From Siphonodentalium dalli (taxonomy: Eukaryota; Mollusca; Scaphopoda; Gadilida; Siphonodentaliidae): a stretch of DNA of 64,000 nt. Where the stretch lies: the NCBI GenBank assembly GCA_032622095.1, contig CP136061.1, positions 6,334,734 to 6,398,733 on the forward strand, read 5' to 3'. Shown here one piece after another: positions 10,572 to 42,133 of this stretch. The notes below the pieces were generated by a model that had not been told where the DNA came from, did not search any database, and saw only the letters and a list, made by a program, of their open reading frames with translations. Within the stretch, counting starts at the first letter, position 1, and every line of letters starts with the position of its first letter. The position numbers and the translations under genes were made by a program.

Positions 10572-10700
10572 CTTTATTAGTTTAGTTTCTCTTTTCCCCA
10601 AAATTGGCAGACGACACAATGCATGATTGAGGTGCCCTAATGGGTGTAAATCACAATATTCACCATTTGGGAACTTCAATCTGAGTATATGTCTCCCATA
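10572..10700. mobile_element. Left half of a family A MITE, split by the giant CACTA element
   Basis: Colinear with 9255-9386: AGTTTAGTTTCTC, GACGACACAATGCATGATTG, AATATTCACCATTTGGGAAC, CTTCAATCTGAGTATATGTC, TCCCATA. The sequence continues at 42131 with the expected next bases (ATAGCAGATGAG). The left hairpin of this copy is missing. Confidence 0.9.
10698..10700. other. Target site duplication ATA, left
   Basis: ATA lies directly before the CACTA terminus and is repeated at 42131-42133. CMC/EnSpm elements make 3-bp duplications, and the unoccupied relative at 9384-9386 has a single ATA. Confidence 0.9.
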
Positions 10701-10725
10701 CACTACTGCACACAAACCCATTAAA
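10701..10725 (+). repeat. CACTA terminal inverted repeat, left
   Basis: It starts CACTACTGCACACA followed by AACCCATTAAA. It pairs with 42105-42130 with a one-base length difference after the first 14 bp. Confidence 0.9.
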
Positions 10726-11285
10726 TGACCATTAAATAACCATTAATCAGAAGTCATTAAAACACCATTAAAACACCATTAAAACCCAATTAAAATCCCA
10801 TTAGAAAAACCTCTTATTCGTTGTCCTTTAAGTGCCATTAAATTGCCATTAATACGGACCATTAATGGGCATTAAATCCAAAAATATTTAATGGCATATA
10901 CACAATATGTGTTAATGGGCATTAATTATTAAGTATCGATTAAAGGCCATTAAAACAAATTAATGGGTGATGACATCTGTTAATGGGCATTAATTTCCCA
11001 TTAAAAACCACTTAAAGGACAACGAATAATGCCCATTAAAATCATGGCCATTAAATATTTGTAATTGTCATGGCCATTAATTTTTGCAGAAGCATTTTCA
11101 TTGCTATTAATGGGCATTAATTTCCCATTAAAAGTACTTTTTACTTTCATGGCCATTAATTTTATGACCATTAATGACATTCCACATTTTAATGGGTTGA
11201 ACTTATTTTTACTTTAATGGCCATTAATGAGATTTCGAATGGTTTAAAATAATGGCCATTAAATATACCATAGCAACCATTAACC
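10712..11285. repeat. CACTA left subterminal motif array
   Basis: About 30 occurrences of CCATTAA/TTAATGG in both orientations, many as palindromes (TTAATGGGCATTAA, GGCCATTAAT). A 21-bp inverted pair is embedded at 10813-10833 and 11009-11029 (core CGTTGTCCTTTAAG). Dense short subterminal motifs are the hallmark of CACTA elements, where they serve as binding sites for an element-encoded protein. Confidence 0.9.
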
Positions 11286-12210
11286 AGGGCTGGAATTTTG
11301 TAGGCAGGCTGCCCGCGGCCTACAGCCCATGCAAAATTATTTTAGGCGGGCAATTGATAGCCCGCCTAACTTCTAAGTTTGACTGGCAAAGTCGCGAAGT
11401 TTTTCAGAACAAAACTTCAAAGGTCGACACCGCCGACGAAACACCAAAGAGACTGTCGGTTTAATCGAAGTTCCATCGCTGAAACAAAGACTAATTCGTG
11501 TTTATTGTCAACGGAGGACCACGTGCTATCCCGCACATCACTGTTATGTGTTGAAGTATCACTTTGAACGCCATTTTGTTCTGGAGTTGTAATTTTTAAC
11601 ACCATTCTTGAAATTTTGCGAGACCTCAATGGAATCGAAAGTTGTTTATTCACGTAAACTTTAAACAAATAAAAAAATTATTTGTAAATGAAATCAATAA
11701 ATTTTATAACTAGAAAGTCAATGTTTTCCGCAGGAATACTTTGTCAATTTTTATAACACTTAGTTGATTCAGTGTTGTACGGGTCAATATTAAACAATTT
11801 CTGAAGAATTTGTTATTGAATTTAGAAAATGCAAAATGAGTTAAATTTCGTGGAATTTCCGCAGACAATATTAATACAAATGTATAACAATCTGACGGGA
11901 AAATTGGGACAAATCTTCCGAATAAATTATTTTCATTCAACAGGTCTGGTATGCTGTTTAATATAATTTATATATTTTTTGGTTGAGGAGGCTTACTAGC
12001 GTGATCACCTGATCACAAGATACTAGGATATCTGTTACCTAATATGGTTTAGCCTTCCACTCGAATGATATCAGTGTGTCATATTCAAAGCACACAATAT
12101 ATTATTCCTATTGTCTCGGCATTGCCTGTTTCAATTATGAATGAGCTTTATTCTTATCAATGGGGAGTTGGGATAGGTACTATTGTACACTCCCACTCAG
12201 TTATAAAAGT
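11286..12210. other. Giant element interior, no recognised gene
   Basis: A somewhat GC-richer patch (about 11290-11560, with GCCCGCGGCC and GGCGGGC) gives way to AT-rich DNA. Overlapping short open frames on both strands near 11252-11668 resemble nothing known to me. The patch could be promoter or leader sequence of the element. Confidence 0.4.
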
Positions 12211-12625
12211 ATACATATGAATAGTCTGGAGGGGTGTTCATGAAACCAACAGGAAACGACATGAATACAGAGTCTATAAATCAATCGCATCAAACTAGAC
12301 AAATAGCCATTTTGCACCAGCGTTGCTGAAGACAAATCTGAAACTATGGGTTCCAATAATGCTCCAGACCAAGTTTGAAAGAAATACACCCTGTGGTTCT
12401 TGCTAAGATTTTTTAAAGTTGCACCAAATTAGTCCTCTTTTGCCCATAATTAACATATTGACCTAATTTTAACAAACATGAATACCAGTCATCCAATTAG
12501 CAAGGCACTTGCACACCAAATTTGAGCAAAATCGGCCAAGTGGTTTTGTAGAAGAAGTCGTTTAAAGAATTGTTGACAGACTAACGCATGAAGAGTGACG
12601 ATCATAGATCCCCTCGATACTTTGT
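12211..12625 (-). repeat. Fragment of the AGCTCACCTGA-type repeat, minus orientation
   Basis: It contains AAACTATGGGTTCCAATAAT, CTCCAGACCAAGTTTGAAAG, TTGAGCAAAATCGGCC and TTGACAGACTAACGCATGA, the complement of modules at 33250-34080 and 39770-40265. Confidence 0.7.
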
Positions 12626-12783
12626 AGACGTATCAGGCTAGGTGATCTAAAAATTATGTTTAAAATTCTTGACGAAATGAACACAAAATCATTCAAATTT
12701 TTTATTTGCATATCTTTTATGCAAATTTTGTTCTCATGCCTTAACTCTTTCATGATGGGAGCTGTGCTGGTGCAGCATTATAA

Positions 12784-12933
12784 CCCTGTGCCAGTGCATT
12801 CTCTTATATATAAGAGAATGCACTGGCTTACAAGATCAAGGTAAATATTGTTAGGCCAATTGATGGAATCTCTTTTATATGCGAGGCGCCCTATGGGCGA
12901 CTCGAATATATAAGAGAATGCATTGGCACAGGG
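12784..12933. mobile_element. CCCTGTGCC double-hairpin element
   Basis: It begins CCCTGTGCCAGTGCATTCTC and ends GAGAATGCATTGGCACAGGG, with a short hairpin at each end. It is the stand-alone form of the module found inside the TTAA MITEs. Confidence 0.8.
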
Positions 12934-13089
12934 TTTTTCGACTCTCCATGACCATTTATGTTAGGAAGAATAAAATATAAAAAATAAAATTTGCCCTCCC
13001 ACCCCAGTTTTCTGAAAAAGTTGGATGTAAATCTAGCAATTTATTCTTATTGGCCTTATGAGGAATATACACACCCGAGGATGAAATTG

Positions 13090-13196
13090 AATCAATATTA
13101 CATGGTTACGAAATGAGATTTGACAAATGTTGTGTGAACCTGAATCGTGTGAACGCCATTTGTCGAAGTTCACTTCGCAACCATGTAATAACATTG
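13090..13196. repeat. Short inverted repeat
   Basis: TATTACATGGTTACGAAATG... is mirrored by ...TTCGCAACCATGTAATA, with arms of about 40 bp. Confidence 0.6.
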
Positions 13197-13445
13197 AGAA
13201 CGACAATCATTTGTTAACTATTGCCAGGAAGTGCAAATCAACAAGGGAGTGGGTTTAAGTTCTATGCATGCGTAACATGTATATACATGTGGAGGAGCGT
13301 AGACAATTGCATGATGGTCTCCAGGAAATAAACATAAAACGGTAGGTTTATAATTGCATTCATAGGCATGTCAGCACAAATATTTGAATGCAAAATCTTG
13401 AAAAATGATCGTATAATTATTTCTTCGAAAAATATTGATATTGTA

Positions 13446-13925
13446 ATTTTAATTCACACACAGGAATTGATTTATCTTAAATATTTTAATAAATTTAATA
13501 AAATCACTCCATCGGTCGTTGAGTTATAGACCCCTGAACCAGATATACCCTTCTGGATGAATTGCCACCCACACATGACAGATAAAGTCGCTGCAAAAAA
13601 AGAAAATCCCTCCAATAAAAAAAAAGTGATTACAGATTCGGAACTGACTTATGTCAGCTTCAGCATGACACATGCATGATGCATCGTGAAAAAAGGCACA
13701 CTAGATCTAAAATTATAAGCCATCGACTGCACATACCCCAGTACCGTAACAAATGCGGTCTGCCATTTATCAGTGAGTGCTACATCCTTACCTGTGCCGT
13801 CATGTTTGGTAGGAAAATTATCCACGCAGGTATTTCTGGTTCGGGGTCTATAACTCTGATAGACTGATTTTAATAAATTTGGTATCAAATTAAATCAATT
13901 CCTGCAATAAGATATCAATTTTCAT
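13446..13925. repeat. 480-bp foldback element
   Basis: Left arm ACACAGGAATTGATTTATC...AGTTATAGACCCCTGAACCA. Right arm GGTTCGGGGTCTATAACTCT...AAATCAATTCCTGC. The arms are about 90 bp, diverged. Open frames on both strands at 13649-13888 are shadows of the element. Confidence 0.65.
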
Positions 13926-13996
13926 GACGTGGTGAAAAACGGCAGCACCAACCGCTAGCTAGTTCCCTATATATAATATATACTATTCCACATGTA

Positions 13997-14370
13997 CCCC
14001 GCTGGACAAAACAAGTGTCCATTGGCACCGTGTTGTATTTGCCGTTCGGCTGCGGTGTCAGAGTTTGTAACTGCAGTTGAACACTGCGGCCGAACGGCAA
14101 GTACACTGCGGCCAAACGACAAATTCACTGCGGCCGAAAGGCAACTACCCTCACGGTCGAATGGCATGTACACCGTGGTTAGATTTCTGGTTTGTATTGT
14201 ATTTTTTCAGTTTGATGAAAGTACACCGTGGCAAATACACCATGCTGAATGGCAATTACACCGCGGCCCAACTGTAGTTAGCCGGTGGAGCCGCGTGTAG
14301 TTGCATGTCGGCCGCGGTGGCAATGCTAACCGCACCGCAGTTAAGTGGACACTTGTTTTGTCCAGCAGGG
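13997..14370. mobile_element. TA-flanked foldback MITE with GC-rich internal repeats
   Basis: The ends CCCCGCTGGACAAAACAAGT and near reverse complement (ACTTGTTTTGTCCAGCAGGG) are flanked by TA at 13995-13996 and 14371-14372. The interior holds several ~24-bp units around CACTGCGGCCGAACGGCAAG. The GC content is well above the surroundings. The open frames here are repeat-encoded and not credible genes. Confidence 0.8.
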
Positions 14371-14372
14371 TA

Positions 14373-15520
14373 TATACCCATATTAAGTGTTCGTAAACCC
14401 ATTTCCGCATAGGGTTGCAAAGTTTTTGCATAAAATATTCGCCCTGAGATTTATATGGACGCAATATATAGACATACCATTTTGTTTATTTCCTGCGACC
14501 ATCTATTCTACACTCCTGATTAGATCACACACAGTATCCGACAATGTTCATGTGATAAATGTGTTTACCATTGGCATCTAATTGTAATATAATGTAGAAC
14601 ATTGTAACAACTGTGAATAAACTTTATTTTAACAAGGAATCAAACGAAACAGCGAACATGCTCATTATTTGAGAAGATAAAACTAACAGAACATGAATTG
14701 GGATTTTCATGCCAACTCAAACATACAAGATGGATTATGCGCAATTGCGTATTTATCATGAAAGGCAAATAAAAGCTTTGATTGAATAGATAATTAAATA
14801 GTAAGGACAGAGTATATATACATAGTTGCATAAAAAAACCCAAATATGTATTTCTCTGGATATACTTAGTCGTCAGTCATTCCATATACCAAAAGAAAGG
14901 GCATTGTCTAAGGAACATTGTGCCAAAAAATGTAGTTGTTTGAACCATGCAAAGGAAAAGAAATCATTCCTGAAATCTGACCACAGACGGTCATCGGGAC
15001 GACAAAGTCATTTTTTTCATATGGTCAATAATGTTATTTTACGGGTTTGTCATTAACATTGACACCATATAGACTTGAAATTTTGACCTTTGGAACCAAT
15101 CCTATGTGAAGAGCTTGTGGTACACTTTATGAAGAAACTTCAAATAGTATGTGAACAATAAATGCATAAGATAGTTCTGAAATTTCTGTATATTATGAGC
15201 TGAGACTTGGAAAATATTGTTTTTGTTCCAGTTTATCAATTTTGATATGTTATGAAAGGGTTTTCATGCAAATATTTGGTCCACCAAATTATTGGGCTGT
15301 GTATGTCTTTCATTGATCTCGGACCTCTTTTTATATGAGAGTAGATGACTAGCTAGTAATACTGTGTTCACTGGGGCTGCTAAATCATCAGGTTGACTAT
15401 GGGGAAACTGTGACCCAGTTCATGGTCTAATGTCATGTCGCATGTCATTTCTGGGTTGGTGGGTGAAGCATTGGGCCAGGCATAATTGTGTATTCTGTAA
15501 ATAAACTAGAGCTGACAGGG
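14373..15520. other. Giant element interior, no recognised gene
   Basis: AT-rich, with only short open frames (14640-15056) without recognisable domains. Confidence 0.5.
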
Positions 15521-15524: not shown

Positions 15525-16235
15525 TGGGACGCTCACCTGACCACAGGACCCCTGGTGCGACAACACTACCATAAGTATATACATGTACCTTAATACAAGG
15601 TTTATACATGTATCTATCGGACCTATATTGAGCATAGACTCACTTGCAATCTAATTTCATCAATATCCTCTGTACATAAGATAATGTCACATCCCCAGTT
15701 CTTTTGACCATATTCACACCTTTAATTTGGTGTATCTAGATCTCTTGCATCGATACGTGTACGATCACCAAAGATATATCTGAATGTGTGCACACTTTCA
15801 AATCCAGACAAACCCTTGAACAGATTCCCATCAAATATAGCATACTAGTAGTACTACTGCAGAATTCCACTTGTCACAATAATTCACAATGGATGGTCCT
15901 GTCTGTGTGACCTCAGCAGAGTAAATTCTGCAGTGCTACTGTGCTATATTTGATGGGAATCTGTTCAGGGGTTTGTCTGATTTTGAAAGTGTGCACATAT
16001 TCATAAATATCTTTGGCGATCTTCCACGTATCGATGTGGGAGATACACCAAATTAAAGGTGCGAATATGGTCTAAAGAACTTGGTATGCGGCATTATATT
16101 ATACACAGGGGATATTGATGAATTTTTATCGCAAGCGAATCTATGCTCAATATAGGTCGGATAGATATAAACCTTGTATTAAGGTATATACTCATGGTAG
16201 TCGCCTGTGCACCTGACATGGTGTAGTGCCTTAAG
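15525..16235. mobile_element. 710-bp foldback element
   Basis: Left arm about 15560-15850 (ATACAAGGTTTATACATGTA, CCTATATTGAGCATAGACTC, AGATTCCCATCAAATATAGC) is mirrored by about 15935-16200 (GCTATATTTGATGGGAATCT, TATGCTCAATATAGG, AACCTTGTAT). The outer edges carry GGGACGCTCACCTGA and GTGCACCTGACATGGTGTAG, motifs shared with 34520-34560 and 40745-40790. Confidence 0.75.
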
Positions 16236-16649: not shown

Positions 16650-17938
16650 CACTGGGGGGAAACTATTTCACCAGAATCGATTCTATCGCCCTTCCGGTTG
16701 CGTCTCTATCGAATTAAGTTCCGACTCTTTCGCGATTTCTAAAACATGTTTTCAAAGTTTTGACCGTTGTTTATAGACTGAATGTCAAAACAGAATGTTT
16801 TCTCCAATAACAATCGACAGATTATGTCTTTATACGTGTTTATTGATGACAGTAAAGCAAAATCGGCTGCATGTTGTGCACAGTCACAGACGTAGTGCGT
16901 TTGGGTGCATTTCCCATGAAAATTAAGCAGCACTTTGATGCTCAGATTATCGGCCTTGTCTACTTTAAATTGGACTGAAACTTGTCAAGTTTTATGGTTG
17001 AACATTAGATAATTATAATACAATACCTCCCGACGGTTCCTCGCCATACAATTCCTTCAAATTAGTGCCTAAAAAAGCAACAAAAGGTTCCGATTCTATT
17101 GTGATGTTTATGTTCACGATCGGTTCTTTCGTTCCTGTTTACAGTACATTCATACTCGATCAGATTATTTGATTGTACATCTATAGTTGCCCAATGACAA
17201 TCCATGATAATATATGGTTTAAAATTGTAGCCATAGTAAATCAATAGATGAGTTTTAGTGGTCCCAAACGATCATAGGTCAGATATTAAAGATGTTCGAC
17301 GGATAATCTTTAATATCCAACCTATGATGCTTTGCGACTACTGAACAACTCATATTGGTGTTGCTGTGACTATAGTTTAAACCATATATGGTAATATGGC
17401 AACTAGAAACACAAATGAACTCTCTGGTCGAATATAATATTGCATTAAACGGGGGGCGAAAGAACCGATCGTGAACATAAAAATCACATTAGAACCGGAA
17501 CATTGCGTTGCTTCTTTTGGTGGATTAATTTGAGGGTCTTTTACTGTGAGGAGCCATCGAGAGCTGTGCTGTAATCGTGTCCTGGTGTTCGATCATACAA
17601 GAAGACATATTTCAGTCTAATTAACAGGTAAAAAGGCCGATAAAAGGAGCATCAAAATGCTGCTTAATTTACAAAGGAAATGCACACAAACACATTACTC
17701 TTCTAAGTGTGCAAAAAATAGCCGACTTCGCATTATTATCACCAATAATTACGCACAAAGACACAATCAAGCGATAGTTTTTGTAAAATACGTTCTGTTT
17801 TAACATTTAGTGTATAAATGGAGGTCAAAACTTTGAAAACATTTGTTTCAAGTCGCGAAAGAGACGGGACTTAATTCGATAGAGACGGAACCCGATAGGC
17901 GATAGAATCGATTCTTGTGAAACAGTTTCCCCCCAGTG
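16650..17938. mobile_element. 1,289-bp full-length foldback element, ACTTA duplications
   Basis: The ends CACTGGGGGGAAACT... and reverse complement are flanked by ACTTA at 16645-16649 and 17939-17943. The two halves mirror each other along most of the length. Examples are AAAACATGTTTTCAAAG versus CTTTGAAAACATTTG, and the centre near 17270-17310 where TTTAATATC meets GATATTAAAG. Open frames at 16739-16933 and 17062-17244 are arm-encoded. The 5-bp duplication and CACTG start do not settle the superfamily. Confidence 0.85.
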
Positions 17939-20343: not shown

Positions 20344-22010
20344 TTACAAAATGTTGGTATTGCTCATATACATATCAAACTTCTGTTTGAATGTTTCATA
20401 AAATTTGCTCTCGTCAAGATCATCATCAAATCGAAGTAGTCCTTCTTCCAGGTTTAGTTTGTAATTCATAACACAGAACTGCTCATCGATGTCGTAGGCC
20501 ATATCCCGCTGGTTAAGCTTCTTCGATTTTGGGTCATTCACAAAAGTTAATTTTTTGCTGACATCGTCTATTTTAGCAATCGCTTTGTTGCAATTGATAA
20601 GGTATTTGATTCCACGGTCATTAACTATTGTTTGGCAAAGATAGAGGTCTCCTGCTGCCCATTCATATATGGCTACACAAACCCTCTCTGAATTTGAAGC
20701 TTTCTGCTTAATTTCCTTCTCTATCATTGAATTAGGCGACTTTTTGTTGTCAATCACATCACTTTGTTTGGCAACGGTTGATGTCTTTATATTAAGCTTC
20801 TGCGTTGTTCTCTCTGAATTTGAAGCTTTCTGCTTAATTTCCTTCTCTATCATTGAATTAGGCGACTTTTTGTTGTCAATCACATCACTTTGTTTGGCAA
20901 CGGTTGATGTCTTTATATTAAGCTTCTGCGTTGTTCTCTCTGAATTTGAAGCCTTCTGCTTAATTTTCTTCTCTATCATTGAATTAGGCAACTTTTTGTT
21001 GTCAATCACATCACTTTGTTTGGCAACGGTTGATTGAACTGATGCCAATTCATCAATTACTTTCTCTGATGTCTTATTAATTATAAGCTTCTGCGTTTTT
21101 TTCTTCTTTTCTTTACCAGTGGCCCTCTTCTTGTTATCAGAGTCAGACTGCTTCTCTGTTTGTCTTATTAATTTATCTTTTTTAGCTAACCTTTCTGTCC
21201 AATATAAAATCCTACCAATGTCTTTGTGCAATCTTGTACCGGTCCCGGTACTACCACATCCTGAAGGTAACTCCATGTCATTTTCATCAATATCATTTGT
21301 CACAACAGATTTAACAACAATTTCAGAAAAGAGATCCGAACTGGATAGAAGGAATATACCAAGTCCAATTTTCACATTCCTTTGTCTATTTAAAAGAACC
21401 ACTTCATCCCCTGCTTGGTAACGCAGACAACTTTCAGAACTTTGGGGCATTTTTTCAATGTTTTTTTTGGTCCCTCGCTTCCCATTTGTACAGTCTTGTG
21501 TGTACTTCCGCCTGTTCTGCAGTTGTTTCCCAAGTCTTTTGAGAACGGTGCCCCTTTTTTTTTTCAGCTGAGGAAGAACATTAAATACTTGTTCGAAAAA
21601 ACGTTCTCGTCTTGAACTTGGTAACGCAGACAACTTTGGGGCATTTTTCCAGATTTTGGCGTTTACTGCAGCATCCTTCAGAACATTGGTAAAGAGCTTC
21701 TGTGCCAGTGTTGGTTTCCCTCTTAGAGGTTTCATCTGCAGTAATTCTTCTTCAGAAAATTCATTATTGACATCGGTACATGTATTAACTTGAGCATCGA
21801 GTGAGGATACATGTAATTCATCATTAAAACTAGTGTCACCATTTACTTGAGTAACTGGACTACTCAAAATATCAGACTCGCCATCTGTATCGGTATTAGT
21901 GTCCTTGCAAAGAAATTTTCTTATCTTATGTCTGTCCCAGAAGTTTTTGAACAAGTCCAATATGTCTGCTTCAGTGAAATTTAAGAGTTGCCATAGTTGG
22001 ACTCCATTTT
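20344..22010 (-). CDS. Giant-element protein 2, last exon (three 42-residue repeats)
   Basis: A 554-codon open frame on the minus strand ending at 20344. On that strand a pyrimidine tract plus CAG at 22013-22011 precedes an in-frame stretch (NGVQLWQLLNFTEADI) joining the TTG at 21960, so the exon most likely starts at 22010 and upstream exons are missing from my call; no in-frame ATG occurs before about residue 75. N-terminal part: acidic, S/T-rich, then a basic region (PQLKKKRGTVLKRLGKQLQN). Middle: GDEVVLLNRQRNVKIGLGIF...LHKDIGRILYWTERL, vaguely like the small domain in plant En/Spm-associated proteins. Then a K/E-rich region with three near-identical 42-residue repeats starting TVAKQSDVIDNKK, and an acidic C-terminus. 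It is the only other substantial protein in the transposon. A TNPA-like DNA-binding partner is my guess; the family is not recognised. Confidence 0.75.
20684..21032 (-). repeat. 126-bp in-frame tandem repeat in giant-element protein 2
   Basis: CAACGGTTG recurs at 20772, 20898 and 21024, exactly 126 bp apart. The two complete units are nearly identical in DNA, and the last is truncated after about 32 codons. Conservation at the DNA level implies recent expansion or conversion. Confidence 0.95.
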
Positions 22011-25400: not shown

Positions 25401-25405
25401 CTTAA

Positions 25406-25776
25406 CCCTTTACCCAACAAACCGGCCAAATAAAGCTTCAACAGCCTAAAATATCTTCGGTCTGTCTCAATAGAACCATACAAATATGGATATCATTGGA
25501 ACCGGCTCCTTGACCACATTGTGATATTTACAGTTATGCCCTGTGCCAATGCATTCTCTTATATATGCGAGTCGACCATAGGTCGCCTCCCATATATAAG
25601 AGAATGCATTGGCCTAAAAAAAATCTTTTTTTAACACTTTTTACTATTTTTTCTTACATTTTATAATTTTTAATGTGTTAAGCCAATGCATTCTCTTATA
25701 TATGCGAGGCGACCTATGGTCGACTCGCATATATAAGAGAATGCATTGGCACAGGGCCGTTCTGTTGGGTAAAGGG
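25406..25776. mobile_element. TTAA MITE (piggyBac-type), copy 1
   Basis: The ends CCCTTTACCCAACA and TGTTGGGTAAAGGG are flanked by TTAA (25402-25405, 25777-25780). The interior has an AAGCTTCAACAGCCTAAAAT block, then two GCCAATGCATTCTC hairpins in mirrored arrangement. TTAA duplication with CCC ends is characteristic of piggyBac relatives. No transposase. Confidence 0.9.
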
Positions 25777-25780
25777 TTAA

Positions 25781-29951: not shown

Positions 29952-30029
29952 CCAGCTACTGACACAAGTTAACATTACACGTTTTATGGGAGCCCATTTT
30001 TTCGGATCGATGTTTGGTCATGTGACAAT

Positions 30030-30469
30030 GTGCGCGAATTGTTGATTGTTGATCAAGAAAAAGAACAAATTATATCAGCATATATGTATAAATCTAGGAA
30101 AAGACCATGTGGCTGTAAGCGTTGTAAATACCATCGCTCTCAACATTACAGTACCGTACAGAAACATTTGGTCGAATTTGGCAAGTATAATGCCAATGGA
30201 ACTTCTGACATTGACAATAAATTGAATAAGTTTAAGAATAACGTTGTTGATGTTGTTATTGTGGACAATGAAAGTATAAGTGATACTGATAGTGAAGATA
30301 TTCAGTGTGATGATCTTACCAGTACTGATGATGAATCAACTACCAGTACTGATGATGAATCAACTGATGACATCATGGAGTCGATGGACCAAAGCATTTC
30401 TAATAATGCTCTTGTTGCCAATGTTGGCACTACTGGACATTCAACCAATTACCAAACCAGCCTTACCAG
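30030..30469 (+). CDS. CACTA transposase, exon 1 (N-terminal zinc motif)
   Basis: The frame is open from 29973. The coordinate 30030 is a GTG, and the first in-frame ATG is at 30084, so translation probably starts there or in an unseen upstream exon. It encodes CGCKRCKYHRSQH...HLVEFG (Cys 27, 29, 32; His 35, 39, 46 counting from the GTG), resembling the transposase-associated domain at the N-terminus of plant En/Spm TNP2 proteins. An acidic D/S/T-rich linker with repeated STDDEST follows. It ends ACC AG at a clean GTGAGAA donor (30470) in phase 2, compatible with the exon at 32587. Confidence 0.8.
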
Positions 30470-32586
30470 GTGAGAACTTATGATATTTATTAATTCTCCA
30501 GGCTCTTGCCATTTTACTAGTCTTAGTTCAAAATGAACCTATTTAAATCAGGTCGAGCACTAGCCCGCATCTTCCCGGGCTTTAATGACCTGGATTGGAA
30601 TATCACAGATTGGTGTCGTTATAGACCGCGTTCCATGCCTATATTTTCAATAGCACTTTGTGCGCCTATGATCCTGAGCATGAACGGTGCATGTTTATAG
30701 GGTTTTCCATGACTGAGATTTGAAGGTCAACTAATCAGCCGTAATAGTCAAAGATTATTCGATTAATCATCAACTCATACACCAAAAACTGTCATCAATG
30801 CCAGAGTACTAGTACCTTCCTGTGGATACCATACTTTTCTTCCGCAGTTATTAACTATCCGTGTATCTTTTTTCAGCCCTCAAAATTCACTAAGGCAATT
30901 CCGTAGTAAAATGCCATAGTTCATGTAATTAGCCATGGCATATCATTACTAGTACCGTAGTAAAGTGTCAGGTAAATCCTGTGTAATCACTCAGCTCCAG
31001 TACAAACGTGACAAGATTGAATACAATCACGCAATACCGCTATTCTCAAAGTAATTGACCAGAAAAACGGGGTGATACCCCGGTCATGACCGCGGTGATA
31101 CCGGTAATAAACGGTAGCGGTATCGAGGCGGTCATGGCGTGGAGTTACGGTATTGGGCGATAATGATACCGTGGTCTTTTAGCGGGCACCGCATTAATTT
31201 TGTTGAATACCGCAGTGATTTTCGTGGAACTCTTTTAGGGGAAGTATTTACTCACACATACTTGTTCGCGTTAACAAGCGGTATCAGTACCGTGGTATTG
31301 GAGGATACCGCGGCATAGTACCGCCATATTAACGGGGTGACACCACGTTATTGGTGGTCAATTACTTTAAGTATAGCGGTACTTCCAATACATGCAAATA
31401 AACAAGTGCGAATGGTGAAGGATCAAGAGGTGCCGGGGAGTATGTATTTGTTACACATTAGATGTTTTTCTGTTCTGTTAATATCATTGAAATGACTATA
31501 ACAAATAATTTCCCGGCTTCCCTGCCCAAAAGTTGACAATTTAATAACGAATTTTGTCTAAAAATACCATATTTTTCCAAAGTAAAAATAAACACAAAAA
31601 CAATCATAATATGTGCCAATAATTATAAATGAAAAAATTTAATATTCAGACATAAAATAATGAGTCAAATTGTGTAAATCAAGCATAAAGAATTATAAAA
31701 TAAAGGTTTTACTTCATTTTAGTGTCCTAAAACCTCCTCCAGGTGGCACCTCCTGATCCGTCACCATTGAGAGGAATGGGAGGAACTTGAACATTACATG
31801 AAGGTTCATTTTGAACTAGACTAGTCTAAACAAAGTAGACTGAGTAGTACAAAATGAACCTATGTCCTATACTAATATGTATAGTATTGGTTCATTTTCA
31901 ATGTCCAATGTGTATCAAATAATGCCTCGAAAACCTCCCCTGGCACCTCTTGATCCCTCACCATTGAAATGAATGTTGGCAATTACATGTAGGTTCATTT
32001 TAAACTCAGCCTTTTGTCATTGACTCGCCGTATTGTACATGTAACCAACATATGAACCCAGAATGGCAGAAATAATAAATCACTTACCGGTAGTTATCTT
32101 CGTAATAGCCCATTCACATTCGGCAACATAAATATAAATGAAATCAGGATGTTTTCTTAATTTTCTGTGGATATTATTGTGAGAAAAAAATCCCTCTTTG
32201 TTTATCTTCTTAAAACGGAAAAATATCTGAAAAGTATCGTAAGAAAATTTGAGTTTTTCATTTCACCGAGTGTGTTATGGATACAGCCCTCTAAATTTAG
32301 ATTGTTTGGCTTCGGCAACAGTATGCCGTGCCCCAGTTTGCTTCAGCAAATTGCTTCGGCAATGCTGATTGCCGTAGCCAATTATGAAGGCTGTGGATAT
32401 GCATACATGCAAAAATGCAGCGACATTGAATTCACAGCGAATTACCTCAGCCAGATACCTGCGTATAAAAAGCAGCAAAGCTACATATTTATTTGAGTGC
32501 TGTCTCTTATTTATACTGAAAAATAAGAAATTATTATGGTGATCAATTCCAAGGCAATTTCTTTTATTTCACTGTTCTTTTTGCAG
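30470..32586 (+). other. Transposase intron 1
   Basis: GTGAGAAC donor, and a TTCTTTTTGCAG acceptor at 32575-32586. It contains a hAT-like fragment (about 30705-30790), the TACCG-rich foldback at 31042-31383, and repeated AGGTTCATTTT phrases near 30525, 31801 and 31991. The open frame at 32167-32496 has no recognised domain and sits entirely in the intron. Confidence 0.7.
31042..31383. mobile_element. TACCG-rich foldback element in intron 1
   Basis: TACCGCTATTCTCAAAGTAA...GACCAG at the left is mirrored by ACTTTAAGTATAGCGGTA at the right, and inside are CGGGGTGATACC / ACGGGGTGACACC. The interior is packed with GATACCG, GGTATCG and TACCGC words in both strands and is far more GC-rich than the neighbours. 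Confidence 0.7.
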
Positions 32587-32706
32587 GGACACTGGTATGG
32601 ATCATGCGGGTGATGGATCGACTATCGGTGCTGCATGCCAGGACCATAGCATTGCTAATGGTACTCATAACTGTACTGCTGGACATTCAACCAATTACCA
32701 AAGCAG
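32587..32706 (+). CDS. CACTA transposase, exon 2 (120-bp symmetric cassette)
   Basis: Flanked by TTTTTGCAG and GTGAGAAT. It is 120 nt, entered and left in phase 2, so including or skipping it keeps the frame. It encodes a 40-residue S/T/H-rich linker ending GHSTNYQS. The last ~70 bp and the donor resemble the end of exon 1 (GGACATTCAACCAATTACCA in both), so it seems to be a duplicated exon end. No known domain. Confidence 0.7.
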
Positions 32707-34778
32707 GTGAGAATATTTATAGTATGAACCAGCTGTATCTTAACAGATCATGTTATGTCTTAATCCGAATTGCTTTTTATTTTTTTTGTTCATTTTTTTT
32801 TAGTGCCACTTTAAATTTTCAGTGTTCCTAGTCAGAACTCCTCATTCATACTCATCTTTGGGAAGTTTTCAAAATATGCGACATGTGTTCACTTCAACCT
32901 ACGATTTCTCAGCCATATCTCTGAATATCAAATCATGCCTTCTATGAGTTGAATAGGGCATTCAGATAACGCCTTTGCGACGCGTGCGTTTCAGTGTTAA
33001 CTATACCAAGCTCTGAGACATGAGCAACACGTGCGATGTGCCAATCGTTTTCAACGCACGTTCCGTATTTTGTTTGTGCACCACAGAGGCCGCATACCTT
33101 TATAAATGGAAAATTACGTCACTTGGCTTTTTGACTACCGCAAAGTCGCCTCTGTAACAATTTATTCATTTAAACATAGCTCCGATTGGCAAAATAAATA
33201 TTCTCTTGTTGCAGGTGGGATAATATATGGAAGTGTGTTTTGTTTTCGTTAGCTCACCTGATACGAAGTATCATGGGGAGCTACAGTCGTCACATATTGT
33301 ACGTTAGTCAACAATTTCTTTAAATGACTTCTTCTCCAAAACCCCTTGGTCGATTTTGCTCAAATTTGGTGTGGGAGTGGGCGACTGGTTTTCAGATTTG
33401 TTAAAATTAGGTCAATATGTTGAAAGGGACTTATTTGGGTGCAACTTTAATCTTCTTCTCAAGAACCACCAGGTGGATTTCTTTCAAACTTGATCTGGAG
33501 CATTATTGGTACTCATAGTTTCAGATTTGTTCAAGGCATTATGCTCGAATGATTTTAAGGGGCCATTAGGGCCCTTTGAAAATAGTGGTTTTGGGTTTGA
33601 CTTGGAAAAATATGTTTTCTCAAGATAAACATGGTGGCTTGGCCCATTTCGCTCAAATTTGTTGTGCATGTGCCTTGGGTGACTGGTATTCAGATATGTT
33701 AACATTAGGTCAATATGTTCATACCGGTAAGGGGGCAAAAGGGGCTTATTTGGGTGAAATTAAAAAAAATTGGTTTCCTCAAGAACCACTAAGTGGATTT
33801 CTTTCAAACTTGGTCTGGAGCATTACAATTTACTGGAACCCATATTTTCAGATTAGTTCAAGGCGTCATGCTTGACTGATTTAAAGGGTCGCAGGGCTCT
33901 CTGAAACTAGGGTTTTTGGGTTCGATGCAGCTTTTCAAATTGGAAAAATATGTTTTTCTCAAGAAAAACATGGTGGAATTCTTCCAAATTTGGTTTGGAA
34001 CATTAATGGGAGACCTAGTATCAGATTTGTTTACCATTATGTTGGTGGGGCCAAACAATTTGTTATTTTTTTCTATTTTTTAAGGACGACCATGGCCAGC
34101 TGGGTGCAGCCCAGCCACACATTTGTTGAGTAGCAACAAATGCGCTGGTCGTCCTTATACTGAGTTCACTTTCAAACATGGGTGCCGCCATCTTGAATTT
34201 GAGGGGGCCTTCATCTTGGTCGTCCTTATACTGAGTTCGCTTTCGAACATGGGTGCCACCATCTTGAATTTGAGGGGCCGCCATCTTGGAACGTCATTGC
34301 AGTTAAATTAAAACTACAAAATGTTACTTTTCATATAGCCAACATAACAGTAATCATTACGTTAAGGCATTACATGGTTTATTCTTTGCACGTTTATGTA
34401 AACTATTAGGTGACATCACAGATATGTTGTATCCAAAGCGACGTCATATTGGCACGCACATTTCCCCGCGAAATTTCCCCAACTAAAATTTCAATGATAG
34501 AAATATGAAGCTTACGGCACTACACCATGTCAGGTGAGCATCCCAGCCGCCTCTAGTCAACTAGATATTGTGTATGAATAAAAGTTGAGTGCATCGTGCA
34601 TGTATATATGCAAAATTTTCTCCTGTTCCAGCAGGCCTAATGTTTTGAGGTCCGGTAAATACTGGGGTGTTCTACCGGTACATTAATTTAAAATTGAGGA
34701 TTATGTAAATAAGGCCTGAAAGCTAATCCATTTGAAGCTTATATCTGCATTGTAATATTTTAAAACCTTCTTTTCTAG
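32707..34778 (+). other. Transposase intron 2
   Basis: GTGAGAATA donor, and a CCTTCTTTTCTAG acceptor ending at 34778. It is filled with a diverged half copy of the 18852 MITE (about 32775-32960), a block of AGCTCACCTGA-type repeats, and two ATGGGTGCCRCCATCTTGA units (about 34160-34300). Confidence 0.7.
33250..34080 (+). repeat. AGCTCACCTGA-type dispersed repeat, internally iterated
   Basis: It starts TAGCTCACCTGATACGAAGT. Three diverged modules follow, each with TTTGCTCAAATTTG / GACTGGTATTCAGA / TTAGGTCAATATGTT / CTTTCAAACTTGGTCTGG. It resembles a family common in bivalves. Several translated frames here are by-products. Confidence 0.7.
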
Positions 34779-37485
34779 CTCATCTGAAAATGACAAGTCT
34801 TCTGTTGATTCATCTGACTCTGAAAACATGGACAGTGATGGATCTGGAGAATTTGAAGCCGACGTTGAATCAGAATGGTGTTGTCGGTATGACCAAGATA
34901 TTTACAACTCACATGTGGCTGATGAGAAAGTAACAGAAGATTTAACAATACTACAGTGGTTGGCGATGAATTTTCACCTATTCGTTCTCCACCCTACTAT
35001 GAGCAAAGCAGCCTTTAGTCATATTCTGGAGATGCAAAGTGTGCTACATCATGACAAAAGTGTCATGCCAAATTCTTATTATAATGCACGCAAGATTATT
35101 GAACCATTTCTTATCAAGAAATTTGTTTACCATGTCTGTGTCAATGACTGCATAATATTTAGAGGAGAGTATGAAGACGTTGAAATTTGTCCAATTTGTA
35201 AGGAGGAAAGGTACAAGATGGACAGATCTAGATCTATAGCTAGTGGCCGAAATAAAAACAATTCAACAGGACGTCGCAGATTTGTGTACATTCCTATAGG
35301 CCCGAGAATTGCAAGAATGTTTGGTGAAGTGAACCTGGCACAGCTGGTACAATCCCACCCTGGAAACACTGATACATGTAGTGATGGTAAAATGTCTGAT
35401 ATTCATGATTCGCCAATCTGGAAGGAGCTGTATTCTGTGCAGGGTCACTTCAAAGGTGACAAAAATGGGTTATCCTTTGCATTGGAACTGGATGGTGTCA
35501 ACCCGTTCCACAATATTGGTGCTATATACTCTATGACTCCAATTATGCTCACATTGTTAAACCTACCGAGACATGTGAGGAACGCATTCGGAAACATAAA
35601 CCTTGTGGGAATAATTCCAGGAAATGGACGTTCAGAAGCAAAAAACATTGATCCTTACATTGAGATCTTAGTCGATGAGTTGATTTTCATTTCTGGCTAC
35701 TCGGCATTTAATAGTTATGAAAAAGCTCCTATAGAGGTGAAAGTGAAACTTCTGCTCTTTGTTTTAGACTATCCAGGCCTTTCAAAACTTTTTCATCAAC
35801 AGGGAAGTGGTAGTTTGTCTGGATGCCATTGGTGTATGGTCAGAGGTAGAAAATGCAAACATTTAGATAAGGTTATTTACTTGTCCAACAGATCTTTTCT
35901 GGATACAGGAGATTCTCTGAGACTTGATGATAAAAATTTCAGCGTAAAGTCGACCGATTTTTCTGAGAAGCCAGACCTACGCGATTCAAGAAATGAGTTG
36001 GCCTACCGTAAAGCATTTCAAGGGGCATCAAATAAAACAAATTCAAATAAAGTTGCTAGTGCGACAGGCTGCAAGAGTACATATCCTTTAATGCGTTTAC
36101 CAGGACATTCGAGAATTGAGAGCACCCTGCCAGATGCATGCCACACCATAAAGGATGCAATACAGAACATTATGAATGTTATAGTACAAAACAAAAAAGT
36201 TAACATGGCCAAAGTCATAAGTGCTGAACAGAATTATGGTAGGCTTCATAATTCAGTATTGGATGTGGTAACTTCTGATGATGGGCCAGTATGTAAAAAG
36301 AGGAAGTTGCAAAAACCAGAACTTCCATATGTGTTGACAAAATCTGAGTTGAATATCGCTGACCAACGTGCAAGTAGTTTAAGGGTGCCATCTGACTTTG
36401 GCTTGAAACCGTCCAAATTCATTTCAAATACCAGCAGCTTGAAATCACACGACTGGAAACAGTTAGGCTCTCAAGAAATTCTAAAGTTTTGTCTAAAAGG
36501 GGCCCTTGAGCCACGATGTAGAGGAACGTTATTTTCCCTACTTGATTGCGTGGCAGACATGTGTCAGGAATGTTTGTCTATTGACGATATCAATGACTTG
36601 AAAGTAAAAATCAACACAGCACTAGCGCTACTGGAAAGAGACTTCCCACTACACATACAGAATATAACTACACACATTCTGCATCATATTCCAGAGGGGA
36701 TGGTCCGATATGGACCTGTGTACAGCACATGGATGTGGGTCTATGAACGCTTCAATTCCTGGATTTGCAAACGTGTACAAAACAAAAGATATCCGGAGGC
36801 AACTGTTGTGGAAACATTTCTCATTCATGATTGGTGTAACTTCATGATTTCTTCGGGTCGACTCCCATTGCATGCATTGAAGAGCTGCTCAATGTTCACT
36901 TCGAGCTTTTTTGATGATGGTGATGCAAATAATAGTAAACAGCGACAGAAACAATTATATGTGCTTAGAAGAAAAAAGCTTAAAAATTTACACAAACAGC
37001 TGGGCAAGGAAAATTGTGATGGAAAGTGTTCAGTGTATAGATATTTTGTTCACAAAGAATCAAATCCTAAGACAATGCGAATACGCACATACACTTCGCA
37101 ATCAAAAGAATTACTCTCTGCAAAAAGTATGTCGTCATTCATATGTGCAGAATTCCAGCGAGGAACGCAGAAGCAAAAGTTGTGTTCTGGAAAGTTTGCA
37201 TTCTTTGGTAGAATTGATTTCTTCGTTGAACATATGAGTGAAAATAATAGTGCAATCAACACACTTGCATTTGTTAATTGGTATGATAACATCAGAGTTG
37301 ACCATGACTCTGGTCTGTGGTACACAGACATGAATACTGCAGGTGGCAATTCAAAAAAATCTTTTATTTTAACAAAACTCATGTCGGATCCTCTTGTGAC
37401 TGCTGTTGAAGATGGTTGTCTGTGGTTTCTTGGTAATACACCCCAGCCTAATGACTTTAAATATAATCATACAGTGAGAGATTGA
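34779..37485 (+). CDS. CACTA TNP2-like transposase, exon 3 (catalytic part)
   Basis: Entered in phase 2 (AG + C) and in frame with ATG 34828; stop at 37483-37485. The spliced product is about 1,088 residues from the GTG at 30030, or 1,070 from ATG 30084. Counting from 34828: a zinc-ribbon-like CVNDC...CPIC at 104-124; LELDGVNPFHNIGAIYSM at 220-236, equivalent to plant DGFNPFG, with D222 a candidate catalytic acid; NLPRHVRNAFGNINLVGIIPG near 245-265; LLFVLDYPGLSKLF with D314, then CHWC at 333-336; LPDACHTIKDAI at 434-445; LLERDFP with E603 a candidate third acid; and HHIPEGMVRYGP...WMWVYERFNSWI at 619-646, like the region after the core in TNP2 (DUF4218-like). No internal stop or frameshift. 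Family: transposase_21 (tnp2), which cuts CACTA ends. The catalytic assignments are inferred. Confidence 0.9.
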
Positions 37486-37539
37486 GTCATGGACCAACAA
37501 ATATAGGCAAATTTAACTGTATACATTACATTGTACTAA

Positions 37540-38190: not shown

Positions 38191-38258
38191 GATCATGACA
38201 TGGTTACATGGTGAATGAGTCGATTTCATTGGATCAGTTTTAATAATGCAGTACATCT

Positions 38259-39049
38259 ACCTTACTCGTATTTGAATTCGCGCAGTACTTTTAGCGTGAC
38301 CATGAAATTAAAACTGAGTGATAAAAAGTATGATACAAAAGTTTATCGATAATTTTATTTCAAATTCTATTAGATTCTTAGATTGGAACTCTCTATAATT
38401 GTTCTGTATTTCAGACGTCTGAAAGCAGTAAACTGACTAAATGTCGGAGAAATTATTATTATCGGAAATGGCATTACATTACAGGTGGTCTATATGTTCA
38501 CAACTTTCTAGTTCAAATTTGGAACTGATACTATGTATCCATGGAGCTGTCGTCCATTGTATATAAAATTGATTTACCTTTGCTATTCCCAGGAACACAA
38601 AATGTTGGGTAATAGTCTTTGAGAATGTGTTTGAACTTTGAAGTTTCAGATTTGCATGCAGTATATAGATACTATTATTTACGAGGTTTTTGTGGAACAT
38701 AAAATTATAGCAGCGTTCGCAGTTTTAAACTTTATCAGATCAATTGAACCATATATATGAGGTAACATGTCTTAAGATATACATCAAGCAACGAAGTATA
38801 ACCACTAAATTGATGTTCTGCACCTGCTATGATATTTGGCACAGACCACATTTCCATTCACTTCTACATGTATACCTTTTTGCAACATTTCCGCATGGAT
38901 TCTATATATTCTGAACAACTTAAAATAAAACTGTCAGCTTTAAATTCGCATCAGGGTGCGCGAATTCAAAATGTGCGAATTTAAAACTGAGTGAAAAATA
39001 GGTACTACATGTACATGTACGTGAATTTAAATACGAGTAAGGTATATAG
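38259..39049. mobile_element. Non-autonomous element with TACCTTACTCG ends
   Basis: TACCTTACTCGTATTTGAAT at 38259 is inverted at 39030-39049 (ATACGAGTAAGGTA). Inside both ends are GAATTCGCGC-like and TTAAAACTGAGTGA words. The open frame at 38479-38700 is not recognised. Confidence 0.6.
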
Positions 39050-39139
39050 CTTTATTGAAGACCTATTCCCAATAAAGGATAGAAAACCACATAATGCCTT
39101 AATTTCAAATTTGTATGGCAGACATGTGTCCATATAGAT

Positions 39140-39615
39140 TAAAGGTACTCAATCCGATAAAACTCCTCCCAATTACTATTTCAATGGCTTCGGGGGGTCA
39201 AAAATATTTGATTCGAGTCGAGGAAGTCACCCATCAAAGCTCAGATTTGTTAGATATCGATTTTAGAAATCTATTATTTTTCATTATCGGGAATACTTTC
39301 TGGCCCAGAACGCAGTCAAAATTGCGTTATTATTACCACTTGATTTTAGAGTTATCCATCCTTGTCTGTTTGAATAGAGTTTTGGTGTACACATCTCGAG
39401 CAGGATATGAAATTGACGGCAATTATTAGTATCTCGAGAATATAACAAATTTCAAAAATCAATATCTAATAACTCTGAGCTTTGTTTGATGGGTTCCTCG
39501 ACTCGAAGCAAATATTTGTTACCCCCAAAGAAATAGTAATATAGGACCCTCTGATCGGATTGTTGTTGTTGGAATCTGTTGAGATGGGGACCCTCTGTTC
39601 GGATTGAGTACCTTT
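39140..39615. mobile_element. Foldback element, GGTACTCAATCCGA ends
   Basis: AAAGGTACTCAATCCGATAA at the left pairs with CGGATTGAGTACCTTT at the right. Inner arms CATCAAAGCTCAGATTTGTT and TAACTCTGAGCTTTGTTTGA pair around the centre. The frames at 39115-39429 and 39466-39708 are arm-encoded. Confidence 0.7.
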
Positions 39616-39769
39616 AAGCAACATAAATTGTTCCTGTTTTGACGTCAGTGTGTAATTAACACAGAATCGCACACTTGTGGGATGGCTTTGGTGCAGTATG
39701 GCACTCAATTTGACGACACTACCCCCAGTGCTTCATGACATCATAGACTCGTGCCATAACCATCAAAGC

Positions 39770-40265
39770 CTTCACACATGTACAAGTGTAATGTGGGGTT
39801 CTGTGAAAGTAGGATTTTTGGGTTCGACTTGCAAAAATCTGTTTTCTCAACATATACATAGTGGCTCGGCTGATTTTGCTCAAATTTAGTGTGAACGTGC
39901 CTTGGGTGACTGGTATTCGGATTTGTTAAAATTAGGTCAATATGTCGATAAAGGGGTCGGGTGTATTTGGGTACAACTTTTAAAAAATCTTTTTTCTCAC
40001 AAACCACTAGGTGGAATTCTTTCATACTTGGTCTGTAGCATTATTGAAACCTATAGTTTCAGATTTGTCCAAGGTATCATGCTTAACTGATTTTAAAGGG
40101 CTAGCTATAGGGCTCTCTGAAAATAGGGTTTTTGGGTTCGACTTGGAAAAATCTGTTTTCTCAAGAAATACATGGTGGAATTCTTCCACATTCGGTTTGG
40201 AACATTAATGTGACAACTAGTATCAGATTTGTTTACCATTATTTTTTCTGGGCTTTTCAGCTCAT
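39770..40265 (+). repeat. AGCTCACCTGA-type repeat, second block
   Basis: Two modules with TTTGGGTTCGACTTG, GATTTTGCTCAAATTTAG and TTAGGTCAATATGTCG are homologous to 33340-34000. Confidence 0.7.
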
Positions 40266-41365
40266 TTCTAAAAAAAAAAATTTGGATTTAATTAATTTGG
40301 TTTTATATCTTGGTTTTTTGTTCTGACCCCCTTGATAAAGAATATATTTTTTCTTCAACGCCACAGTAGTCAAGTGGGCTCAAATTTGATCTGCAATATC
40401 TATGGGGGAGTAGAACTTTTGTTGAAACCACCTCAACATTAATTTAATAGACCCAAGGCCATAAAATTTAAACCCATTTGCTGACGCACATTTTGAAAAT
40501 ATTGTGTGTCACTGTGAAACTGATATTTGTTGAAATGAGTGGGTTGGTAACTTATAATGTGCGCCAGAACCTCTGGTGACAAGCCTGTGACTAATATTGC
40601 CATGAAAGTGCTTGCTCGATAAATTGAGCCCCCCAATCAAGTGACAATATATCACATTTTATCGTATAGTCTATATATTATATATCGTAAAGTTACTAAG
40701 GCTCGAATTAGTTTCTCCTTTTGAAAACAAGCATATAGCACCGACGCATGTCAGGTGAGCGTCCCAGCTGCCCTGGCGGCTCTAGTTTGAAAATACTATG
40801 GTTGGCATCACATAATATAGCTATAGTGTATATCATATATATCAAACTATCCAATTAATAAAACACACTGATCATCAGACATGATTCCATTTCTATCCAT
40901 GAAAACTGTTTTGCTTTTGGGTTGTATTGGTATTTTATATATAAAAGCAGTTTAACAAGCTTAAGTTGCACAGGCACAACTTGTACATTCCAATTTATTT
41001 CATTAGAATCTAAAAGAAACCACATTTGGAAAGTGATGAACATCAATTTTCCTATTCCAATAAGATGGGGGTGTTAATTAATATTTACACTTCTACCTGC
41101 ACTTCTGCTACCGAGACTGAATCAAGTCTTCTGTTTGGTCAGGAACTGATCAGCTGATAGAGCAACCGTAATGCATAAAGTATGAAAGAAGTTGACACCT
41201 GCTTCACATGTGTAACGTAGCAATTACGTTAACAACGCGCCTGTCGCTTTTAACATTCTATTTTTCACTAGAAAACGGTGCAAATCACATGTGCAAATCA
41301 TTCATTTTATTCAATAATCGAAACAAATTTCCATTGAATGTTCTTTTTGGTGTGTAAATATAAAT
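40266..41365. other. Giant element interior, no recognised gene
   Basis: AT-rich. 40748-40790 repeats the TGTCAGGTGAGCGTCCCAGC motif seen at 34540 and, inverted, at 15525. Confidence 0.5.
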
Positions 41366-41490
41366 AATGTTTCCTGTATTTCCATGCGTTATGAAATCAG
41401 GTTGGTCTGACAAAGTTATGTGAGGAGCGCTTCAGCGCTACACACTGCAACCTGCTTTCATACATCGATCATATCTAGAAATACAGGAAG
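41366..41490. repeat. Hairpin next to the right subterminal array
   Basis: GTTTCCTGTATTTC, then ATGAAATCAGGTTG, is mirrored by CAACCTGCTTTCAT and GAAATACAGGAAGC, with an apex GAGCGCTTCAGCGCT. Confidence 0.7.
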
Positions 41491-41504
41491 CAAACTTTCA
41501 GTTC

Positions 41505-42117
41505 TTAATGAGTTTGATGGGCATTCATTTTTCAAATTCTATGTTAATGGCCATTAACCACCATAGGTACATCATTTAGGGCCCTTAATTTTTTTATTAC
41601 TAAGTTAATGGGCATTAAACACCAGCACTATTGAGGTGATAGCCATTAATTTTTCAAAATTATTAGATAATGGCCATTAAACACCAAAATGCATATAATT
41701 AATGGTCATTAACATATAATTAATGAGCATCAAGTTTTCAAATCATACTTTAATGGCCATTAACCATCATGGATGTACAACAGTTGGTATCAATTTCTCA
41801 AAGTACTTAATTAATGGCCATTAAACACTCAAATACATATAAGATGGATAATAGCCATTAAAATATTAGAGACTATGGCCATTAAATTGTGGTCTTTACA
41901 AATTTTAAGGGCATCTAATGGCCATTAACAATACATTGTTGATGATTAATGGGAAATATGGCAGTATTGGCCATTAAAATAACAAAATGTAATGGTTTTT
42001 AATGGGTTCTGGGAAACCCATTATTTTTTTTGTTACAAGAATTAATGGCATAAAGTAATGGATTTATGATATTTAATGGAATTTTAATGGGATTTTAATG
42101 ATATTTTAATGGGTTGT
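41505..42117. repeat. CACTA right subterminal motif array
   Basis: More than 25 occurrences of TTAATGGCCATTAA-like words (for example 41543-41556, 41752-41763, 41810-41822), on average less G/C-extended than in the left array, and becoming TTTTAATGGGA near the end. It is the counterpart of 10712-11285. Confidence 0.9.
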
Positions 42118-42130
42118 GTGTGCAGTAGTG
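42105..42130 (-). repeat. CACTA terminal inverted repeat, right
   Basis: Reads ...GGGTTGTGTGTGCAGTAGTG to the end, the inverse of the left terminus. Confidence 0.9.
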
Positions 42131-42133
42131 ATA
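42131..42133. other. Target site duplication ATA, right
   Basis: ATA directly after CAGTAGTG. It matches 10698-10700 and the single ATA of the empty-site relative. Confidence 0.9.

Follow-up and report, generated by a model that had tools for sequence, protein, structure and literature searches.

A young CACTA (EnSpm) transposon of 31 to 32 kb in the genome of the scaphopod mollusc Siphonodentalium dalli

The window analysed here is a whole stretch of 64,000 nucleotides from the scaphopod mollusc Siphonodentalium dalli (assembly GCA_032622095.1, contig CP136061.1, positions 6,334,734 to 6,398,733 of the forward strand). It contains an element of 31,430 bp (window positions 10701-42130) which is very probably a recently active cut-and-paste transposon of the CACTA (EnSpm) type, 31.4-32.4 kb long in its various copies and resident in an animal genome. 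The superfamily is a known one, and what is unusual is the size of the element, its youth and its movement as a 32-kb unit. At the level of sequence, movement as a unit of 31-32 kb is shown by target-site duplications (TSDs), empty sites and the near-identity of the copies. An earlier note on this DNA had proposed an apparently intact 31.4-kb CACTA transposon with two genes in an animal genome. This interpretation is supported, with the correction, among others, that four of the ten copies lack a duplication. The animal origin was confirmed by 41 wnt matches in the assembly, all over the Pfam cut-off, and by the absence of any match in 14 control genomes.

The left terminal inverted repeat (TIR), CACTACTGCACACA (10701-10714, plus strand), and its exact inverse on the right (42117-42130, minus strand) form a perfect 14-bp repeat beginning with CACTA. 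The same three bases, ATA, lie outside each end as a TSD (10698-10700 and 42131-42133). Termini and duplications were located exactly where the earlier note had placed them, its range of 10698-42133 taking in both duplications. Within the window, CACTACTGCACACA has five matches, two of them exact and at the element ends and the other three with 3 mismatches each; 21 pairs of inverse 14-mers more than 1 kb apart share an outer 3-mer, and the element pair is the only one to start with CAC. Subterminal motifs of the AATGGNCATTAA type occur 13 times in the window, six in the first 800 bp of the element (10701-11500), seven in the last 800 bp (41331-42130) and none elsewhere. A related uninterrupted site with a single ATA lies at 9243-9498 (plus strand): when the flanks of the element were joined with one ATA, 230 of 257 columns were identical (89%) and the alignment was unbroken at the junction, which is also spanned by four further window copies of the same repeat family at 72-79% identity. 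The empty-site argument of the earlier note is upheld by this alignment and by a closer empty site at another copy, described below. Five CACTA/EnSpm features were found, namely the CACTA TIR, the 3-bp TSD, a Transposase_21 domain, DDE/C(2)C/H(3)H residues and subterminal repeats; together with a DUF4218 domain and ten dispersed near-identical copies, they bear out the classification.

The copies were counted in the host assembly (2,226,750,531 bases in 9 contigs). An extended terminus pattern gave 52 exact genome matches and none for a reversed control, 10 of the left type (the terminus with the next 11 bases) and 42 of the right type; as the left pattern was exact, copies whose left terminus has mutated would escape it. 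At all ten exact left termini, the window copy included, a right terminus was found 31,430-32,365 bp away. These ten copies are spread over six contigs, and the 14-bp TIR is identical in all of them. Six copies were read whole (five fetched, plus that of the window), and their pairwise identity is 99.818-99.991% over at least 31.3 kb of aligned bases, indels apart. Between two of the copies, C3:0.46 and C2:230.26 (copies being named by contig and position in Mb), 31,740 aligned bases contain 3 mismatches and a single indel of 47 bp. For the other four copies, of which only the ends were compared, the values are 99.25-99.85% (left, about 2 kb) and 99.37-99.74% (right, about 4.9 kb). Each of the six whole copies carries 12-13 subterminal motifs, none of them internal. 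The window copy is without segments of 304, 32, 21 and 13 bp that are present in all five fetched copies; the 304-bp segment has TACCC at both of its boundaries.

A perfect 3-bp duplication flanks six of the ten copies, those in the window (ATA) and at C3:63.92 (TAA), C6:123.29 (ATA), C6:1.81 (TTA), C3:30.67 (ATC) and C1:96.47 (TTA). The comparison with empty sites took in the window and 26 genome loci, and it yielded sequence spanning the restored site for five of these six copies. Besides the 89% relative of the window copy, the relatives are at about 91% for C6:123.29 (within a minisatellite), 90% for C3:30.67 (in the copy's own left flank) and 100%, as far as seen, for C1:96.47; that of C6:1.81 is weak, belonging to the window's repeat family and matching at 68-72% with 68-89 gap positions. 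Among the same loci, no empty-site relative was found for C3:63.92 or for the four copies without a duplication. At C1:96.47, the left flank recurs 2.0 kb past the element, with 99.9% identity in 1001 aligned columns; at 3.0 kb this second copy continues into the right flank across a single TTA, and the 68 bp seen of that flank are identical. Either the empty twin (C1:96467611-96503040) stems from a local duplication in which the element struck a single unit, or two alleles stand one after the other here. The empty sites of the window copy and of the C1:96.47 copy fix the length of the duplication at 3 bp. The earlier note had proposed a search of the same assembly for further copies with 3-bp duplications, and such copies are present in it.

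The transposase gene, Tnp2, lies on the plus strand and is predicted to be spliced. The upstream exon (29973-30469) has a frame open from 29973 and a donor GTGAG at 30470, and was found in 11 genome copies; the main exon (34779-37485) is preceded by a pyrimidine-rich AG acceptor ending at 34778. The splice sites are in phase and the predicted splice, 30469/34779, gives a stop-free joined frame of 1048 codons; there may be further exons beyond these two. The main exon encodes Transposase_21 (PF02992, E 9.6e-27, 94 bits against a cut-off of 28.6) and DUF4218 (PF13960, E 6.4e-12), and the upstream exon has a weak match to Transpos_assoc (PF13963, E 0.0057) which, at 17.2 bits, is below the cut-off of 27.7. 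In the genome search, which scored 51 of 106 candidates, the main exon was open in 12 of 12 family copies, each at 100% identity among the matches listed. In PMC12730594, CACTA transposases are defined by a DDE triad in which C(2)C and H(3-4)H stand between the second D and the E. Residues picked by eye, without an alignment (D222, D314, C333-x2-C336, H616-x3-H620 and E640, counted from the ATG at 34828), fit a DD-C(2)C-H(3)H-E scheme, and the protein is predicted to be catalytic. Inside the predicted intron, at 32520-32828 (plus strand), we also observed an open frame whose match to HlyIII stays below threshold (E 0.00045).

A second gene, ORF2 (20344-21960, minus strand), encodes 538 amino acids, is conserved from residue 76 and contains 126-bp tandem repeats. 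Its open reading frame (ORF) is intact in 10 of the 11 genome copies that match it over all or nearly all of its length; partial matches with stops at C2:54.76 and C3:18.96 Mb are outside this count. Alignment of three sequences defined a core with 39 invariant columns, including RGxPTxAQ, IWK, NRRKY and GKR. At six places in the genome, a relative of Tnp2 (47-50% identity; one in two pieces, the second at 39%) lies near a relative of ORF2 (29-34%). Four of them, at C9:48.04, C8:10.67, C6:46.72 and C3:199.58 Mb, have co-oriented genes and a match-to-match span of 19.8 kb, and represent a second CACTA family that has matches to both genes (C8:10668221-10688020, C9:48043471-48063266, C6:46704433-46724231 and C3:199576318-199596105). 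At the other two, C8:188.66 and C1:18.82 Mb, the spans are 11.4 and 12.2 kb and the genes are on opposite strands, as in the window element. Both the spans and the grouping into two families derive from match coordinates. Since the Tnp2 and ORF2 matches span 11.4-19.8 kb in these relatives, large size is probably not confined to the family of the window element.

The two genes announced by the earlier note are therefore present as Tnp2 and ORF2, but they do not fill the length: the identified coding sequence amounts to about 4.8 kb, and the remainder is non-coding, with an intron and nested inserts. One insert is a foldback or miniature inverted-repeat element (25402-25780), 97.6% identical to window positions 45120-45501 and present in all six whole copies. 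Another is a foldback of 471 bp (39143-39613) with a 19-bp TIR. It occurs in 12 large copies, and of the 28 other relatives scored, 19 are without it; in these 19, the match ends at 39142 and resumes at 39614, the two parts adjoining or overlapping by a few bases. Two large foldbacks occupy 15565-16201 and 16650-17938. When the end 25-mers of six nested inserts were looked up in the six whole copies, both ends were exact in 33 of 36 cases and one end in the remaining three. The C4 copy carries an additional 500-bp foldback with ATGCCC on both sides. Inserts common to the whole copies, together with this copy-specific one, indicate that uptake took place before the spread of the element and has continued since. 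The foldback family of about 380 bp is also found outside the element, at 42315-42696, 45120-45501 and 62249-62647, at 87-98% likeness to the copy at 25402-25780.

Other contents that could explain the size were sought by scanning the 125 ORFs of at least 60 amino acids in the element, together with 129 of its 166 shorter ORFs (28-59 amino acids, chosen strands and stretches). No other transposon or viral family matched the 125 longer ORFs at E <0.05. Beyond the Tnp2 domains, the best matches in the scans were HlyIII, below its cut-off as given above, and Ribosomal_bL9m_C (E 0.00053); transposon- or virus-related names that came up at weak scores were IS66_C (0.068), Circovir2_Orf4 (0.073), Orbi_VP2 (0.099) and Integrase_H2C2 (0.051, among the 129 short ORFs). 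With so many ORFs scanned, all of these were taken as chance. Captured host genes or viral cargo were accordingly rejected as the cause of the size, as was a nested retrotransposon as its bulk, no reverse transcriptase or integrase core having appeared in the scans. No protein relatives were found in IMG/VR or in bacterial and archaeal contigs, and the 14-base TIR matched 83 IMG/VR stretches, as chance predicts for a word of such length.

The ends of the element are also found at shorter distances. Among 122 left-end and 142 right-end candidates, 40 places of each kind were scored, so that the pair counts are lower bounds. For at least 30 left ends, a right end was found no more than 40 kb away: the distance is 31.4-32.4 kb in 9 cases, the right end of the tenth large copy not being among those scored, and 4.7-20.4 kb in at least 21. 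One pair is doubtful, as the right end at C9:180.29 Mb is shared by two left ends. The 21 scored shorter relatives have a median length of 6,913 bp and have in common at least parts of the outermost 1.65 kb at the left end and of about 3.1 kb at the right end; scored end matches that do not belong to the large class resemble it at 87-95%. Among the matches listed for Tnp2 and ORF2, not one lies at these 21 places, which suggests that the shorter relatives are non-autonomous.

Several observations weigh against a recently active transposon. Four of the ten copies (C4:160.95, C3:0.46, C2:230.26 and C5:191.06) have no matching 3-bp duplication. Among the 100 combinations of left and right flanks, the longest frame crossing the junction was obtained with flanks of two different copies, the left of C3:0.46 and the right of C2:230.26: it is continuous over 398 codons, at least 198 on each side when flanks of 600 bp are used, and TGT is duplicated. 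In second place came the junction of the C5 copy itself, where the shorter side has 64 codons. Compared with the PDB, part of the joined piece matched a Ty3 reverse transcriptase on one side of the junction (E 5e-14) and other reverse transcriptases across it (E 4e-8); a Pfam scan at 0.01 was empty. Judging from these frames, the two flanks of a single insertion that duplicated TGT now lie at different copies, via recombination or misassembly, and the near-identity of the two copies would fit a genuine exchange as well as a faulty join in the assembly. Between the two halves left over (GAC and CAC) there is no match, and a partner was found for neither, so flank exchange explains the missing duplication in some of the four copies but not in all. 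In addition, two extra right ends at 100% identity (C1:95.51 and C3:271.40 Mb), which belong to two more Tnp2 copies outside the count of ten, are without a left end: no element sequence was found in 1,151 bp around the expected position at C1:95.51 or in 501 bp at that of C3:271.40. At the latter locus (C3:271400773-271433150), the right part is 99-100% like the window copy and the left part 91.8% over the 1 kb read.

The remaining adverse points concern ORF2. It is broken in one complete copy, C6:123.29 Mb; a mosaic origin of this ORF2 (84% protein match) was considered and rejected, its DNA being 99.2% identical with five gap openings, which points to a frameshift. No Pfam family matched ORF2 over its cut-off, and the families of the plant TNP1 type (PF03017 and PF03004) were not among the matches at E up to 10. 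Likewise, there was no NCBIfam match at E 0.01, and with a profile built from three relatives the best PDB match had an E of 0.62. Tnp2 relatives or fragments without a nearby ORF2 among the matches listed occur in at least eight places (C2:4.68, C2:5.42, C8:155.29, C3:269.69, C3:38.19, C3:38.72, C3:282.42 and C3:294.57 Mb), and some ORF2 relatives, such as that at C2:156.96 Mb, are without a nearby Tnp2 among the matches listed. The pairing of Tnp2 and ORF2 is hence not universal.

In the mechanism that we propose, the spliced Tnp2, a transposase of the RNase H-like DDE type, would bind the 14-bp CACTA termini, excise the whole element and insert it at a 3-bp staggered break. By analogy with plant TNPA/TNP1, the ORF2 product may bind the palindromic repeats within both ends and join the distant ends. 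Copy number would increase through repair of the donor gap from the sister or homologue. The unit would have grown by taking small transposons into its introns and non-coding parts with its mobility kept, and the relatives of about 6.9 kb could be mobilised in trans as non-autonomous elements. A bolder version, in which the 32-kb transposon is self-sufficient, moves whole and is still polymorphic in the living population (the C1:96.47 twin being the other allele), ORF2 is a member of an undescribed end-binding family that the large CACTA elements of this lineage have in common and no practical size limit near 10-20 kb applies to DDE elements, is tentative and somewhat less likely than not.

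A rival reading concerns the role of ORF2. That ORF2 is something other than a TNPA-like binder of the ends (putative target TTAATGGCCATTAA), for instance an anti-silencing factor or a captured host gene, has a likelihood not far short of even. The lack of a recognised Pfam or PDB relative suits such a role, as do an orientation relative to Tnp2 that varies between families and the several Tnp2 relatives without a listed ORF2. What speaks for an end binder is that relatives of ORF2 occur close to Tnp2 in six places, belonging to two further CACTA families, and that the core is invariant in three aligned sequences, as expected of a core transposon gene.

It is also conceivable, though unlikely, that the element is no longer mobile by itself, the ten copies having been moved by another source of transposase with the interior as passive baggage. 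The genome does contain other Tnp2 families, shorter relatives without Tnp2 or ORF2 among the matches listed have also spread, and the broken ORF2 of C6:123.29 means that self-sufficiency is not needed in every copy. Yet Tnp2 is open in every one of its 12 copies and ORF2 in all but one of 11, and the termini and subterminal repeats are kept in the six whole copies. Moreover, the nearest other Tnp2 genes with a near-full match are at 47-50% identity, and fragments reach 62% at most among the matches listed.

Far less probable is that the copies are segmental duplications or assembly repeats, the 32-kb block having been copied with its surroundings or its sequence reused by the assembler. Such an origin would suit the very high identity between copies, the four without a TSD, the pair with exchanged flanks and the position of the C1:96.47 copy in a local duplication. 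However, the similarity ends at the CACTA termini, the flanks (600-1500 bp compared) sharing short repeats only; the TSDs of six copies are specific to each, and five of the six have an empty-site relative; and the six whole copies differ mutually by mismatches and indels. Finally, the idea that two unrelated half-elements end here by chance, for which size alone would speak and which the earlier note had already dismissed, is refuted, since the same pair of ends recurs in one distance class at all ten exact left termini.

The element can be set beside several known systems. The soybean element Tgmt*, a plant CACTA/EnSpm transposon of 20.5 kb (PMC2613891), shares with that of the window a CACTA TIR of 13-14 bp, a 3-bp TSD (ATA too), subterminal repeats, a spliced Tnp2 and a very large size; the window element differs in its 31.4-32.4 kb, its animal host and its ten young near-identical copies. 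Unlike in plant CACTA elements, its second protein is encoded by a separate gene on the opposite strand, with no detected Pfam TNP1 match. A CACTA-like element of Chenopodium quinoa (16,523 bp; PMC8978399) likewise owes its length to internal non-coding baggage, there a 5.5-kb satellite array, whereas the window element holds nested foldbacks and introns and is twice as long. EnSpm families of the red alga Chondrus (16-20 kb, cited in PMC6431247) are similarly enlarged, with 4-5 ORFs compared with the two genes identified here. The animal TRC elements, including SmTRC1, also have animal hosts and a Transposase_21 domain, but their termini are CCC and their duplications 2 bp long, features absent from the window element with its CACTA termini and 3-bp duplications; the examples described measure 5.2 kb in Tribolium and 9.2 kb in Aedes (PMC1636069). 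Giant eukaryotic transposons (Polinton/Maverick, Teratorn and large Helitrons) exceed 20 kb (PMC6431247), as does the window element, which differs from them in being of the cut-and-paste CACTA type. Searches of an open-access library listed no animal CACTA element of comparable size, Repbase and subscription papers being outside those searches. Polintons/Mavericks carry DNA polymerase B and an integrase, Helitrons a Rep-helicase and Teratorn herpesvirus genes; none of these was recognised in the ORF scans of the element, in which genes in short exons could escape, nor in a repeat scan of ten ORFs, nine of the longer ones from the window and one from another copy. Membership in Chapaev, which makes a 4-bp duplication, was rejected on the duplication of 3 bp.

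Elsewhere in the window, positions 1-5743 consist of a 55-bp unit repeated about 104 times at 97%, and a nearby ORF (6855-7322) encodes a Rabenosyn Rab-binding domain. Other tandem arrays lie at 48524-49263 (63-bp unit), 52186-54255 (164-bp) and 61074-61548 (30-bp). Neither a tRNA nor an Rfam family reaching the gathering score was found in the window.

Cut-and-paste elements are usually regarded as small, and with this element, a 32-kb unit of two identified genes that has recently moved several times, the size limit of DDE transposition in animals becomes directly testable. Near-identical repeats of 32 kb are also a warning for assembly, as they can swap flanks, whether in the assembly or in the chromosome. 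The second gene, common to three families, is a target for learning how distant ends meet. Nested transposons travel as passengers within the mobile unit and, if the bolder version is true, growth by such inserts would show that there is no practical size limit near 10-20 kb for a cut-and-paste DDE element.

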